A DNA stretch of 64,000 nucleotides from Acidisphaera sp. L21 (lineage in GTDB: Bacteria; Pseudomonadota; Alphaproteobacteria; Acetobacterales; Acetobacteraceae), in NCBI RefSeq assembly GCF_009765685.1, contig NZ_LMUY01000145.1, positions 64,519 to 128,518 on the forward strand, in the 5' to 3' direction. Below are positions 47,812-54,974 of this stretch, in pieces (the stretch's first letter is position 1; every line of letters starts with the position of its first letter). Both the position numbers and the translations under genes were made by a program. The notes under the pieces are model-generated. The model was given only the letters and a program-made list of their open reading frames with translations, did not search any database and was not told the DNA's origin.

Positions 47812-48411
47812 TTGCAGGGGTTTCGTGTCGGTCGCCGGGTCTATGCCTCTGTTCGTCGCCAGCAGCGGGAGGACGGCCGCTATGAACTGGTCGATGGCTA
47901 CACGACGATCTTGGCTGGGAACACCAACCGCGATGATCGTACTGTGCGCAATGGGCTAGCGTTCGTGGAAAACGGTCTGGCCGGGCACCGATGCCAGCCG
48001 TTCACCTCGGACATCTTCGTCGCCGCCCCATCTGGAAACCGCAGGCACGCCGACATAGGCGTCGATTGTGGCTGTCCCTTCGGTGGCAGCGTCGAAGCCG
48101 ATCGGCCGGGTTCCATCTGTGAAGTGCTACCGTCAGCCCAGGGCGGGGCATTTGAACTGCCCTCCCGGATCCGAGACTATCGCGGCATACCCTCTTTGCA
48201 AGTCCCGGTTCTGGCAGATCCAGAACACCCTCGCGTCCTCGTCCATCGGCGCGCCGCGGACAGTAGGTGGGTTGATCCCCTGGAACTGTTACAAGGTGTC
48301 GAGGCGGTCTTGAGCTTGCCTCAGTTGGGCCTCCAGATGCCTCTTACCGCTCTCCATCCAGGCATCAGCTTTAGTGCGCGGCCGATCGGTTCGCTCGGGA
48401 GCGATGGATAG
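47812..48411 (+). CDS. Uma2-family endonuclease-like protein
   Basis: 199 residues. The core YELVDGYTTILAGNTNRDDR, then HRCQPFTSDIFVAAPSGNRR, HADIGVDCGCP and ADPEHPRVLVHRRAADSRW, matches the Uma2 (DUF820) fold, a PD-(D/E)XK nuclease superfamily abundant in cyanobacteria and some alphaproteobacteria and of unclear biological role. The usual V-V-E-V-L-S-P-S-T segment is degenerate here (ICEVLPSAQGGAFELPS), so activity may be impaired. The N-terminal 25 residues are not family-like, and the only nearby start in frame is TTG at 47812, so the 5' end may be damaged. It is divergent from the second oxidoreductase operon. Confidence 0.6.
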   Translation: MQGFRVGRRVYASVRRQQREDGRYELVDGYTTILAGNTNRDDRTVRNGLAFVENGLAGHRCQPFTSDIFVAAPSGNRRHADIGVDCGCPFGGSVEADRPGSICEVLPSAQGGAFELPSRIRDYRGIPSLQVPVLADPEHPRVLVHRRAADSRWVDPLELLQGVEAVLSLPQLGLQMPLTALHPGISFSARPIGSLGSDG

Positions 48412-49999: not shown

Positions 50000-50392
50000 A
50001 TGCCTGCACGTCGTGTTGAAAAGCTTGTAAGTCCAAGTGATGAGGGCCGCGGGCGTGTCCTGGGAAAGAAGCCTGGAGATAAAGGCTGGAAGTATGCCGA
50101 GTACGACATGGACCTCAAGGAGGGCTTCGATTTCAAAGCTCTGCAGAAGATGGTTGGTAATAGCATCTTCGCGTCCCTCCGGCTCGACGAGGACTTTGTC
50201 TTGATTTGCGATGAGAACGGCTCCCTGAATGGTTCGAAACCCAATGTTGGCTTGGCCAATCAGAATGGTGAGGTTCTGACCCTTGTAGGACCCATTGCTG
50301 TCGTCCGTGTCACACGCAAGGGCGCTTTTGTAGGGCTCTTGCCTGGCGACGGTGAATTGATAGGCGAGACTTTTGACTGGCGGGCGCTTTGA
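50000..50392 (+). CDS. DUF3846-like small protein
   Basis: 130 residues. A basic N-terminal tail (MPARRVEKLVSPSDEGRGRV) precedes a compact domain: FKALQKMVGNSIFASLRLDE, then FVLICDENGSLNGSKPNVGL, and VLTLVGPIAVVRVTRKGAFV. The order (a short helix, D-E-N-G, N-x-G-L, then a G-P-I-x-V-V strand) resembles DUF3846, a domain common in phage, plasmid and accessory regions. Function unknown. GAGG lies 9 bp before the ATG at 50000. It starts a row of four small plus-strand genes. Confidence 0.55.
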   Translation: MPARRVEKLVSPSDEGRGRVLGKKPGDKGWKYAEYDMDLKEGFDFKALQKMVGNSIFASLRLDEDFVLICDENGSLNGSKPNVGLANQNGEVLTLVGPIAVVRVTRKGAFVGLLPGDGELIGETFDWRAL

Positions 50393-50498: not shown

Positions 50499-50684
50499 AT
50501 GGCCAGGGATCGGCAGTTCTCCGGCCAGCCAGCCGATATCGCCAGCAAGACAGCGCTAGATCGCGGAACAGGCCATTGTATAACTCGTGCCGACCTTCTG
50601 CAGCAGGCAGCCAGGAAAGGCATTTTGCGGCGGTCCCGGATGAAGAAGTCTGAACTCGAAAAGGTATTGGCTGCTCATGGTTGA
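50499..50684 (+). CDS. small SAP/Rho-N-like protein
   Basis: 61 residues ending TRADLLQQAARKGILRRSRM and KKSELEKVLAAHG. That segment matches the SAP/Rho N-terminal helix-extended-helix motif (L-x-x-x-A-x-x-x-G-I-x-x-R-S-x-M-x-K-x-E-L), which binds nucleic acid. The start at 50499 is preferred over the ATG at 50493 because AAGAGGA sits 6 bp upstream of it. Its stop overlaps the start of the DUF3140 gene. Probably a small DNA- or RNA-binding protein. Confidence 0.7.
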   Translation: MARDRQFSGQPADIASKTALDRGTGHCITRADLLQQAARKGILRRSRMKKSELEKVLAAHG

Positions 50685-51039
50685 CCACAAGGATGATAAC
50701 CACGCCGTCGAGAAGGAATTCAGAAGTGTGGTGAACATGACGCCGAAGGCATTGCGGGAGTGGCTCGCAATGCCGGAAAGTCAGAGCGTGGGCATGACTC
50801 ACGACGGAGAGAAAGTGACGGAACCCGGCGGCCATGAAGCTGTTGGCCACGAGATGGGCCGACATATCGTCTCCCTCCTTGCCAAAAAGAAGGCAGTCCT
50901 GACAGACGATGATTATGCGGTCATGCACAAAGTTGTTGGCTACGTCCACCGCCATCTCAAGCAGCGGCCGAAGGGCGATATCAAGGATAGTCGTTGGCGG
51001 CGCTCCCTGATGAACTGGGGCCACGACCCGCTCACGTGA
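50677..51039 (+). CDS. DUF3140 domain protein
   Basis: 120 residues. Family blocks are EFRSVVNMTPKALREWLAMP, ESQSVGMTHDGEKV, GHEMGRHIVSLLAKKKAVLT, DDDYAVMHKVVGYVHRHLKQ and SRWRRSLMNWGHDPL. DUF3140 proteins are described as putative DNA-binding proteins and are often found with stress genes. The ATG overlaps the previous stop by 8 bp and the stop overlaps the next GTG by 4 bp (GTGA), so the three genes are translationally coupled. Confidence 0.88.
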   Translation: MVDHKDDNHAVEKEFRSVVNMTPKALREWLAMPESQSVGMTHDGEKVTEPGGHEAVGHEMGRHIVSLLAKKKAVLTDDDYAVMHKVVGYVHRHLKQRPKGDIKDSRWRRSLMNWGHDPLT

Positions 51040-51401
51040 GGGCAACGAGTATCCATAGGGTCACGCCCGATGGCCGCTACTTCATCGTACGCGGGCGCCG
51101 CTGGCGTTGCACAGATCCGAGCTTGAGTGCGCCGCGGCGCGATGAGCTGACACGGGAATTGATGGCTGCGCGTCGGGCCAAGGAGGTGGCAATGAGCCAA
51201 AGCGATGCCATCTCTCAGGAAGAAGCCCGCCACCGTGTCGATGCTGCCAAAGTTGAGTTGGGTGAGCGAGGCGCTCCCTGGTGGACTGACGGCTCCCCAG
51301 ATTACAACCGGAAGATGGGGGCGGCAACGCCGTATGCATCTTGGTTTGCCAGCCTGGAAGAGCAGTCGACCTGGTCAATCCGGAAGAGGCTGCCTTCGTG
51401 A
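51036..51401 (+). CDS. hypothetical protein, last of the coupled small-gene group
   Basis: 121 residues from a GTG at 51036. It reads THRV-like at the start (IHRVTPDGRYFIVRGRRWRC), then a basic helix (LTRELMAARRAKEVAMSQSD), RHRVDAAKVELGERGAPWWT and YNRKMGAATPYASWFASL. Proteins with the V-T-P-D-G-R-Y-x-x-V-R-G-R-x-W-R start and the W-W-x-D-G-x-P-D-x-N-R segment are widespread in alphaproteobacteria without assigned function. The start is set by the GTGA overlap with the DUF3140 gene. Confidence 0.7.
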   Translation: MRATSIHRVTPDGRYFIVRGRRWRCTDPSLSAPRRDELTRELMAARRAKEVAMSQSDAISQEEARHRVDAAKVELGERGAPWWTDGSPDYNRKMGAATPYASWFASLEEQSTWSIRKRLPS

Positions 51402-51471
51402 TTCCTGCGAAGGGCAGGCTTGTAATCAGTGCGTATCCGGTGGCTTCCGTTGGCTGGCGCACCACTTTAAA

Positions 51472-54400
51472 TCATGGCTTTCGCTGGCGGAGCTGTCGGG
51501 CAGCCAATGCTTTAAGATACGGCGGGTCGATGACACCTGGGGGAACAAAGACCTCATCCTCTTCCCGCAGGCCCGTCACGTCCGGATCGTGCTCCGTGAT
51601 TGTCCAAGCCTCCTTGACGACGACTCTTCGCATGAGGAATGCATTCTCACGTAGCAAGGTCATAGACCGTCCGTCAGCAGACATGTGCCCAGCCGCTAAG
51701 CGGAAGCCACCGTAGAAGCCGTAAGCCCGCATGAAGGCGTCTAGAACTGTTGGGTCCGTGCTGTTTGATGTCAGTGATTTAGAAGTCATGACAAACTCGT
51801 CGAATGGCTGCGCAGACTTTGCAATCAGGTCCATGTCAGAGCCGACGACAACGCGCCATGAGTGTGGATTGGCGGCGTGCACACCTTTGACAATCGCAAT
51901 CCTCAGCAGCGGCTCGCTCTCGTTGTCATATTGCTTGAACCATTTTGCAAAGATTTGCTCGGCTGGCCCACGGTTTGTAAATGCGAGCACGAGAACGGGA
52001 GGCTCACTCCTTGAGGTGATGAGCGTGACAGCTGACCATAGAGCGGCATGCCAAAGGTCCGCTTCTATCACGGAGAACACCCGCCGTTGACGGTGCTGCA
52101 AGCGTTCCGGGTCTAAGAATTCTTCTGGAGGCCTCCCGACCCCTGGCCTTGTCAAGCCGCCCCGCGCTCCCGCGCCAGCGGCCCTCGTTAGTGGCAACTC
52201 TGTCCCCGGACGCACCCGCGCCAACCTGCCGCTCTCGTCATTCCACTGGCTTAAGCTCGCCACATCGGCGGAGCCAAAATGGTCCACCATGTAGGCCGGA
52301 TAGTTCGCGTAGGCGAGACAGCGCCCGAGAGCTTCTTCTTCCTCGAAAATCCTTGTTAGATAAGCGGAGGCGTCCTTCACGAAAATCGTCTTCGGAATCA
52401 GGAATTTGACAAGCGCAAGCAGGAGTTCGCGCATGCCGCCCGTCACCGCCTCATCCGATGGATTGTAGTCATTATCCACGTCGACGCAGGCAAGGTATTC
52501 GGTTGCATCGGTAACTATCTGAAGCCCCGGCTTGACCCCGTCTGTTTTGATTCCCGGCGCTGCAACCCTCACTCCGATATCGACAGTCTGCCGATGAGGG
52601 GCGACATCACGTTGCAGACTGGTGGCGAAAAACGCCTCAACGAACCCCAGGATTGCTTCGGCTATGTAGAGCGTGAGATTGGTGTTGGGAGTGCTGACAC
52701 GCCATTCGCATCCTAGCAGATTTGATTTGAGGGTGACCGTCTCCTCGTTGAAGGCGAATGGCTGTTCCGAGAACCCTTCTGCGCAAGGGCGACTTGAGAA
52801 TTCGAGCATCGTGGCCTCGAGGTCTGCAGCAGATGTATCCGCTGGTATATACTGTTCGCTCCTGAGCGACTCGAGATGTCCAGTGGCATACAAGAGTGTC
52901 ATCCCGGATGCATTGAGACCGAAGTGAGCGAGGGATTTCTCAAGCGCGGACATTTGGTCGATCTGGCTTGCATCTGACCTCGCAAAAAGCGAGGCCAGCT
53001 CGAAATCTATTTCCTGAATGAATGCTTTGAAATGCTCGAGGTCTTCCTCTTCGAGCTGCAGCTGACTTGCCAGCACATGAGCCATTTCGACATCGAGCAG
53101 GAATTGCGGAAGGCGTCCTTGCTGAAGTTCCAGCCAGGTCATGTGTTCAAGGCAACTCAAGGCTTGCGGGTTGAAGCGCCCGGACAGCCTGAACTCGACG
53201 TGTGCGATGACAAATGCGGCAGTCAAGACGCCATTGGCCGCCCAGAGAAGGCCGACGTTTTGGTATGCAAATGCAGTTGCAGCGAGGCAGCGGATAAAAG
53301 TGTCCTGATATTCCTTCTTGGACAGCTTTGGCTGTGCCCGGCCCAGCAACCGGATTGCGTCGTATGGCAACTTGGCCTCGAGCTTTTGCAATCCTCGTTT
53401 CAGCAGTGCGCGGCCGCCTTCGATGTCACTGCGGCGTCGCTCGATGAGGGGGAGGATGACCTCAAATGCTTCGTCATAGCCGACTTGCTCACCGACGAGA
53501 CTTCCCAGTTCCGTAAAGATTTGCACATACTGGTCGAACGGAAAGCCAGGCAGATGGTCAGCGGACCGGAATATCTCTGCCAGCCGTAGGAGGATGTTTG
53601 CCACGTCCTCTGAGCCGCTGATTGAACTCGTCGTCAGATCCAGGAGGCAGAGCATGGCACCGGCGTGAGCGGCATTGTTCGGCCGCTGAACGTCGCTCGA
53701 GAGCCGGACGAGGCTGTCACGTAAGCGTTGCGCCCGGGCTTCGAGCTGGGCGCTCTCCTGTGTCAGGATGCCGTGGGCGACCCCCGCCAGGAGGCCGTTC
53801 CATAGGTTTGCAGGGCGTTCTATGTCATCTGCTAAATCACTCTCCAGGGCTAACAACTCGACCTTGTCGTAAAGCCGATTAAGTTCGGCAAAGTCATCGA
53901 ACCAGAAATATGTCGTCCAGGCCCACTGATAGAAAACCCGCAGCTCCTGCCCAGGAGCGGGATATTTGGCGGCCAGCCGCTCGGCACGGCGAAAGCGTCC
54001 ATCGACCTCGACCCGGCTCAGCTCGAGTTCCCGGCTCACGACGGCTGCCTCCAGGCAGTCTTCAACCAGTTGATATTCGACTCCTTGGTAACGGTCCTGG
54101 TCGGTGATTTGGTTTTCGAGTTCGAGCAGCCGTGCCCGCTTCTCGCCATCAAGAACCCCACCGCGGGTAACTCTTGTCGGTTTAGCAACGGCAATGTTGA
54201 GAGAGTCGATTGCGAGTTCGATGTGGCCGTTTTCGAATACCCGCTCGAGAATCCAGGAGCGGTCAAGGATGCGGACGGTCAGACCGTGCTTAAGAGAGAG
54301 GCTGTCCTCGAGGTCGCTCCTGTCCTTGTCACGGATATACTGGTTTGAGATAAAGTAGGCGACCTTGTATCCCCGGCCGACTTTGACAATCTTCTCGATG

Positions 54401-54744
54401 TCCGACTTGAGCTTGGACCGCCAGTCCTTTTTGGCGCTGACTGCAAAGGCCCAGCGTTCGGTACCGGCGTTCTGTTCGCCTTCATACCACCGTTCACTTA
54501 CCTCTCCAGCGACAGGGTAGGTCTCGGTGTCCACCTTGCTGTCGCCACCGCCCGTCGGTCCGGTCTGCGGGAGCAGATTTGGGCAGATTTCCCTCTGAGC
54601 CAGCTTTCTGGCGAAATGTTCGAATGGTTTCTCTTCGCTTCGGCTTGTGAGTGAATCCAGGTGATACTCGAGAAAGCCGCGATCCAGCGTGGCGACCTCT
54701 TCGACCACACTGTCTGAAAACTGCTCTGGGCGACGGCCCTTCAT
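51472..54744 (-). CDS. large nuclease-helical-repeat protein, candidate defence effector
   Basis: 1090 residues. The N-terminal ~190 residues look like a PD-(D/E)XK nuclease: FEHFARKLAQREICPNL with Glu42, TGPTGGGDSKVDTETYP with Asp68 (and Asp72), then RWAFAVSAKKDWRSKLKSDI with Lys105, in the order E...D...K. KVAYFISNQYIRDKDRSDLE and VRILDRSWILERVF complete the domain. Residues ~230-690 are alpha-helical, TPR-like (ECLEAAVVS..., LLKRGLQKLEAKLPYDAIRL, WAANGVLTAAFVIAHVEFRL). The last 400 are unassigned, with DVDNDYNPSDEAVTGGM and LVLAFTNRGPAEQIFAKWF. There are no signal or membrane segments, so it acts in the cytoplasm. Nuclease-plus-repeat giants are common among anti-phage proteins; that role is inferred. 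The start is taken at ATG 54744 (MKGRRPEQFSDS); GTG 54798 is possible. The sequence seems less GC-rich than flanking genes. Confidence 0.75.
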   Translation of the reverse strand: MKGRRPEQFSDSVVEEVATLDRGFLEYHLDSLTSRSEEKPFEHFARKLAQREICPNLLPQTGPTGGGDSKVDTETYPVAGEVSERWYEGEQNAGTERWAFAVSAKKDWRSKLKSDIEKIVKVGRGYKVAYFISNQYIRDKDRSDLEDSLSLKHGLTVRILDRSWILERVFENGHIELAIDSLNIAVAKPTRVTRGGVLDGEKRARLLELENQITDQDRYQGVEYQLVEDCLEAAVVSRELELSRVEVDGRFRRAERLAAKYPAPGQELRVFYQWAWTTYFWFDDFAELNRLYDKVELLALESDLADDIERPANLWNGLLAGVAHGILTQESAQLEARAQRLRDSLVRLSSDVQRPNNAAHAGAMLCLLDLTTSSISGSEDVANILLRLAEIFRSADHLPGFPFDQYVQIFTELGSLVGEQVGYDEAFEVILPLIERRRSDIEGGRALLKRGLQKLEAKLPYDAIRLLGRAQPKLSKKEYQDTFIRCLAATAFAYQNVGLLWAANGVLTAAFVIAHVEFRLSGRFNPQALSCLEHMTWLELQQGRLPQFLLDVEMAHVLASQLQLEEEDLEHFKAFIQEIDFELASLFARSDASQIDQMSALEKSLAHFGLNASGMTLLYATGHLESLRSEQYIPADTSAADLEATMLEFSSRPCAEGFSEQPFAFNEETVTLKSNLLGCEWRVSTPNTNLTLYIAEAILGFVEAFFATSLQRDVAPHRQTVDIGVRVAAPGIKTDGVKPGLQIVTDATEYLACVDVDNDYNPSDEAVTGGMRELLLALVKFLIPKTIFVKDASAYLTRIFEEEEALGRCLAYANYPAYMVDHFGSADVASLSQWNDESGRLARVRPGTELPLTRAAGAGARGGLTRPGVGRPPEEFLDPERLQHRQRRVFSVIEADLWHAALWSAVTLITSRSEPPVLVLAFTNRGPAEQIFAKWFKQYDNESEPLLRIAIVKGVHAANPHSWRVVVGSDMDLIAKSAQPFDEFVMTSKSLTSNSTDPTVLDAFMRAYGFYGGFRLAAGHMSADGRSMTLLRENAFLMRRVVVKEAWTITEHDPDVTGLREEDEVFVPPGVIDPPYLKALAARQLRQRKP

Positions 54745-54974
54745 ATACTCGGAGGGCAGCACCGGTTTGCGGGCAGGTTGCTCTGGCGTCGTGCTCACAA
54801 TCGGCCTCGCGCGGGTATGTTCTGGGCGTGTGGAGAGCGGGTATGTTATTGCGCCTCGGTGGGCCGACTCGTGTGCAACGGTCCGGACCCGGAATGCTAG
54901 CACGAGGTTGAGGCGGGGCTATATGTTTCTTGTTAGGAGGCGGCGAGACGGAAACCTCAGCTAATGAGCGACTT
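54745..54974. promoter_or_regulatory. 5' region of the nuclease-repeat gene
   Basis: The 230 bp before the 54744 start contain alternative in-frame starts (GTG 54798, ATG 54903) and must include the promoter. No sigma-70 boxes could be placed with confidence. The hairpin cluster begins just beyond. Confidence 0.4.

Follow-up and report, generated by a model that had tools for sequence, protein, structure and literature searches.

A gene in the genome of Acidisphaera sp. L21, lying within the stretch of 64,000 nucleotides analysed here (the window), encodes a large protein in which a nuclease-like N-terminal domain is followed by a TPR-type solenoid, a middle domain and a C-terminal module (CTD). 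The wide mobility of its family, the pairing of a nuclease with a helical arm and the attachment of the same CTD to SEFIR domains elsewhere suggest that it probably constitutes a single-gene anti-phage system not recognised before. We put at roughly 60% the probability that it is a stand-alone anti-phage protein, that is an autoinhibited nuclease in which infection is sensed by the TPR part, the CTD or both, without an NTPase.

The gene and its surroundings

The open reading frame that the sequence-only reading had proposed, from an ATG at 54744 to 51472 on the minus strand (1,090 aa, without internal stop), is real, but its start is probably misplaced. In the alignment of full-length homologues a motif P-S-(E/D/Q)-(Y/F)-(M/L), or PSEYM for short, ends at the methionine of this ATG, and P13 of the motif is near-invariant. 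These conserved residues upstream of the ATG, together with a GAGG a few bases 5' of a GTG at 54798, make the GTG, 18 codons further upstream, the likelier start. The coding sequence of the nuclease-TPR-CTD protein is therefore given as 51472..54798 (minus strand; 1,108 aa), with the ATG as the alternative. Residue numbers below refer to the 1,106 aa encoded by window:51475-54792 on the minus strand, in which residue 1 begins at 54792.

The gene lies downstream of gyrB. Its GC content (57%) and GC3 (0.65) are below the GC content of the window (62.5%) and the GC3 of the adjacent dnaN, recF and gyrB (0.82-0.87), which fits horizontal acquisition. Several kb downstream of gyrB were compared in eight relatives that belong to the same family; none of the window's other post-gyrB genes that were tested was found there, so this region is variable. 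In the first search of relatives, the nuclease-TPR-CTD protein was missing from the remaining 59 genomes. The window copy itself has gyrB and genes of metabolism as neighbours, and no named defence system adjoins it. A Uma2 gene and small DNA-binding-like genes had been reported nearby; the former is confirmed as a Uma2-family gene (47812..48408, plus strand; Pfam PF05685, E=6.3e-8), whereas the small genes, which serve as context only, encode a DUF3846 protein (50000..50389, plus) and a DUF3140 protein (50677..51036, plus) and the DNA-binding label is not backed. Between the DUF3140 gene and the target (50994-51465) overlapping, unassigned ORFs occur on both strands, the plus-strand one being without a Pfam match.

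A match to a characterised non-defence family, which would speak against the role in defence first proposed, was sought in Pfam, PADLOC, NCBIfam and PDB sequences; none was found, and the whole protein gave no significant match in any of these collections.

The N-terminal domain

Residues 36-212 (54157..54687, minus) are predicted to form a PD-(D/E)XK-like nuclease domain by AlphaFold (pLDDT 80.2, pTM 0.77) and Foldseek, and in the full-length AlphaFold model its elements follow the order of the alpha/beta core of this superfamily. When the isolated domain was compared with the PDB by Foldseek, the best match was Avs4 (8dgf; E 4.8e-3 and 5.4e-3, probability 0.99 and 1.00); EcoT38I ranked fourth and Can2 sixth. 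These E-values are modest, none being 1e-3 or lower, some unrelated folds are interspersed among the matches, and the segment holding the first two core strands has a low pLDDT of 55-59; a nuclease is thus likely rather than proven. PD-(D/E)XK nucleases, the fold put forward in the sequence-only reading, are nevertheless among the top matches of the model. Profile searches with the nuclease domain against Pfam and the PDB gave nothing credible and identify no named nuclease.

The same reading had picked out an ordered Glu42, Asp68 and Lys105, and these hold up in the family alignment as E58 (codon 54619..54621, minus; helix 1; conserved in 19 of 20 members), D84 (54541..54543, minus; 20/20), which lies in an invariant TGPxGGGDxKxDxE block, and K121 (54430..54432, minus; 20/20), which lies in an S-A-K motif after a core strand, where (D/E/Q)-x-K is usual. 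D84, D88, E90, S119, K121, K127 and D131 are invariant in the 20 members. The E58/D84/K121 motif is conserved among proteins only 24-39% identical to the window protein and is thus not due to chance. The N-terminal domain is also the best-conserved part of the protein: its alignment columns average 57% identity, those of the entire protein 45%. This conservation adds weight to the model, and the domain is likely to be a PD-(D/E)XK nuclease. A protein of 736 aa encoded at L032:6159-8369 (minus) carries a related N-terminal domain and perhaps a PIN-like part, to judge by a weak Pfam match (PIN_12), and may represent a further combination of this nuclease fold.

The solenoid and the middle domain

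The full-length AlphaFold model (seven sequences: the window protein, L002 and the viral-contig rows; pLDDT 78.6) places after the alpha/beta N-terminal domain a solenoid (residues 213-667), an alpha/beta domain (685-839), a disordered linker (853-905) and a further alpha/beta domain (approximately 911-1074). The solenoid, annotated as residues 213-668 (52789..54156, minus), is of TPR type judging by its AlphaFold helices and by Foldseek matches to TPR proteins in the PDB such as LGN, in agreement with the approximately 450 TPR-like helical residues expected from sequence. Foldseek searches with the full-length model are dominated by TPR proteins and are uninformative for the other domains. 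The 400-residue C-terminal region that had been left unassigned resolves into the two folded domains and the linker. The first of these, the middle domain, is annotated as residues 676-862 (52207..52767, minus) from the AlphaFold model, and its start aligns with a distant sister clade. The solenoid follows directly on the nuclease domain; no NTPase was matched in the window protein by Pfam, and no Walker A motif or P-loop was found in any of 19 members. A Walker-like match in the DNA within the gene was rejected since the encoded protein has no Walker A motif.

The C-terminal module and its SEFIR fusions

The CTD (residues approximately 903-1078; 51559..52086, minus) was delimited by alignment and HMM and is common to a set of SEFIR proteins. 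A genome search with the family profile recovered two proteins of 369 and 362 aa (P0002 and P0003) that match just its C-terminal 180-200 residues. Both begin with a SEFIR/TIR domain (Pfam SEFIR, 1.3e-14 and 8.7e-18) and match the PADLOC bSEFIR model at 1.2e-61 and 2.3e-56. A third CTD-SEFIR protein is encoded on a Lactiplantibacillus plasmid, where an AbiEii gene adjoins it and a toxin-antitoxin pair lies nearby. Such fusions (L030:7840-8949, minus; L031:7401-8489, plus; L039:3982-5097, plus) comprise three proteins from two phyla. An HMM of the CTD built from the nuclease-type proteins alone, without the SEFIR rows, recovers P0002, P0003 and P0006 (E 5.8e-45, 4.4e-36 and 1.6e-19) and reported none of 2,000 shuffled sequences. 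As judged from these alignments, the CTD is a portable module common to two effector types.

The CTD profile gave nothing credible against Pfam or the PDB. It was considered whether the CTD is the known bSEFIR sensor; this was rejected, as the CTD alone has no match to the PADLOC bSEFIR model. In a scan of viral contigs, the SEFIR protein used as query had no relative. The three CTD-SEFIR proteins offer a possible basis for splitting bSEFIR by sensor type. A separate protein of 1,544 aa on a Nostoc plasmid (P0007; L040:5977-10608, plus) has an N-terminal SEFIR domain, an apparent P-loop (GIPGSGKSAL) and then a long region, and resembles a SEFIR-STAND receptor.

The sister clade mentioned above (L035:7739-10912, plus; L015:5971-9018, plus, on a Mycobacterium gordonae plasmid) can be aligned with the family from the nuclease domain through the TPR region into the first part of the middle domain (hhalign probability 99.4%, columns 38-743). 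Its C-terminus is a different one, with a G-x-K-D-W motif and no match to the CTD, and the site of K121 is occupied by E or Q. A Shedu gene adjoins the M. gordonae member. The presence of the CTD on SEFIR proteins, and of the nuclease and TPR regions with another C-terminus in the sister clade, indicates that the protein is modular at its C-terminus.

Distribution and mobility of the family

Plasmids, prophages and chromosomes all carry copies: the approximately 20 full-length homologues, with the identities given above, come from Alpha-, Beta- and Gammaproteobacteria, Cyanobacteriota and Bacillota. Full-length or near-full-length copies were located by tblastn on plasmids of Nostoc, Agrobacterium, Pseudosulfitobacter, Cupriavidus, Burkholderia, Cohnella, Sphingobium and Polymorphobacter. 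Further homologues occur in Rhizobium sullae, in five viral contigs, in an unverified gut-phage scaffold and in the genomes G262, G377, G723, G958 and G1075. Broken copies were found in Pantoea (L012) and Bradyrhizobium (L014), where the homologue is split into several ORFs; besides being gained, the gene is therefore also lost through decay.

The nearest relative of the window protein, itself alphaproteobacterial, is a cyanobacterial plasmid copy (39%). In a tree of 21 proteins, in which long branches leave some placements unsure, the topology is incongruent with taxonomy, and well-supported branches require a minimum of four gains or losses in the Alphaproteobacteria. The copy in L022 sits between phage primase and terminase/portal genes, as prophage accessory genes do. 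Matches came from 4 genomes in the class (385 searched) and 5 in the phylum (399 searched), counts that include the query genome and some partial or distant matches. The family is thus rare and patchy, being present in about 1% of the proteobacterial genomes sampled, and its plasmid and prophage positions, tree incongruence and patchiness mark it as widely mobile.

Neighbours of the homologues

The 99 proteins encoded within 6 kb of 12 homologues were compared with 140 control proteins that the same replicons encode at other places (PADLOC, E<=1e-10). The neighbours matched 178 PADLOC models and the controls 57, many of the latter seemingly due to a single reverse transcriptase; as the control is small, the models counted are redundant and the named ones come from among the matches listed, this is to be read as a qualitative contrast. 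AbiEi/AbiEii, MkoA (8.6e-220) and PD-T4-6 are among the neighbour matches listed. The Sphingobium copy (L010) has Hachiman HamA and HamB directly downstream, the Burkholderia copy (L008) has PD-Lambda-4_A (6e-302) and IetS alongside, the Bradyrhizobium remnant has SAVED and Fic genes nearby, and the Nostoc plasmid (L003) carries NACHT and AbiEii. ParA/ParB adjoin the copies in L003 and L009. A 1,924-aa neighbour of one homologue (L033:2298-8069, plus) was considered as a Zorya component and was not called, as the ZorA models matched weakly (1.5e-17).

The homologues are accordingly not confined to conserved housekeeping loci, an outcome that would have counted against the sequence-only reading, and instead lie on plasmids, within prophages and next to known defence systems. 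The family thereby combines mobility with association with defence genes, as expected of an anti-phage system. When all neighbours within 4 kb were compared with one another, no partner gene conserved across the family emerged, and the protein therefore appears to act alone.

Proposed mechanism and alternatives

In the uninfected cell, the TPR and C-terminal parts would hold the N-terminal PD-(D/E)XK nuclease inactive. Upon infection the TPR solenoid, the CTD or both may bind a component of the phage, with a protein as the likeliest candidate, and this binding would cause the protein to rearrange or multimerise so that the nuclease cuts DNA. The phage could then be stopped either by degradation of its DNA or by death of the infected cell. 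The CTD would be a sensing or assembly module, which in the course of evolution has also become joined to SEFIR NADases; we infer that sensing of infection is its role, with assembly as the alternative. Nuclease activity, autoinhibition, trigger and immunity are all put forward here as predictions from domain content and context.

This proposal has to be weighed against the possibility that the protein is a large restriction-type (type IV-like) endonuclease, in which the CTD or the middle domain recognises incoming or modified DNA and phage or plasmid DNA is degraded without a phage-protein trigger. The match of the nuclease fold to a restriction enzyme, EcoT38I, and a plasmid location suited to the exclusion of competitors would agree with such a role. 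We nevertheless regard it as unlikely, as no cognate methyltransferase is a conserved partner and the TPR solenoid is a protein-binding fold, while a CTD that recurs in SEFIR proteins, which use an effector other than a nuclease, is better suited to a general sensor than to a DNA-specificity domain. A toxin of addiction, competition or stability, borne by plasmids or prophages and having no anti-phage role, would explain the frequent occurrence on plasmids and the ParA/ParB genes alongside two copies; the lack of a conserved antitoxin partner, the existence of chromosomal copies, the very large size of the protein and the named anti-phage systems in its neighbourhood make this the least probable explanation, and we give it little credence.

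Hardly more probable is that the N-terminal domain is a nuclease fold that has degenerated and serves for binding or scaffolding, in a protein that acts by some other mechanism. The S-A-K in place of the usual third motif, the E or Q at the K121 site of the sister clade and the modest Foldseek E-values could be taken in this way, but the invariance of D84, D88, E90 and K121 across 20 divergent members and the higher conservation of this domain than of the rest of the protein are difficult to reconcile with loss of catalysis. An autoinhibited anti-phage nuclease therefore remains the reading that we prefer. The architecture was not described in the open-access literature searched, and its novelty is accordingly provisional. 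The family is not in PADLOC-DB 2.0.0 (2023), and would thus be missed by routine annotation despite its presence in several phyla.

Comparison with known systems

The sensor of Avs4 is a TPR-like arm. Avs4 (AVAST type 4; PDB 8dgf, bound to the PhiV-1 portal) is the closest fold match for the nuclease of the window protein and also has its effector at the N-terminus, and the C-terminal repeats with which AVAST proteins sense a phage protein may have a counterpart in the TPR-type repeats described here. In contrast to Avs4, the family has no STAND NTPase and no PADLOC match, and the window protein has an additional middle domain and CTD; the absence of the NTPase sets the family apart from AVAST. 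An Avs4-like effector and repeat arm with no STAND NTPase would suggest activation by ligand binding or oligomerisation without ATP. EcoT38I and Can2 share the PD-(D/E)XK core by Foldseek but show no detected sequence similarity and have other additional domains and another context. With bSEFIR (PADLOC PDLC03957) the possible link is the CTD, carried by the matching proteins P0002 and P0003; the window protein, however, has a nuclease in place of SEFIR, has TPR and middle domains in addition, and matches neither SEFIR nor bSEFIR in Pfam or PADLOC. Lacking SEFIR, the family is not bSEFIR.

It has been shown that the nucleases of Avs1-Avs4 cut phage and host DNA, killing the cell, upon recognition of conserved phage proteins such as the terminase and portal (PMC12931631), and that SEFIR systems deplete NAD+ (PMC12774641). 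By analogy, the present family may work in the manner of Avs4 and SEFIR systems. More tentatively, at somewhat less than even odds in our estimation, it belongs to an unnamed family of NTPase-free single-protein immune sensors in which one CTD sensor is coupled interchangeably to a PD-(D/E)XK nuclease, with a TPR arm in between, or to a SEFIR NADase with no such arm, and in neither case with a STAND switch. Should the protein work as proposed, the CTD would be a recognisable sensing module and a handle with which to search for further systems, the same trigger should activate both the nuclease and the SEFIR NADase, and a compact NTPase-free single chain would accomplish the task for which Avs systems rely on a STAND switch.
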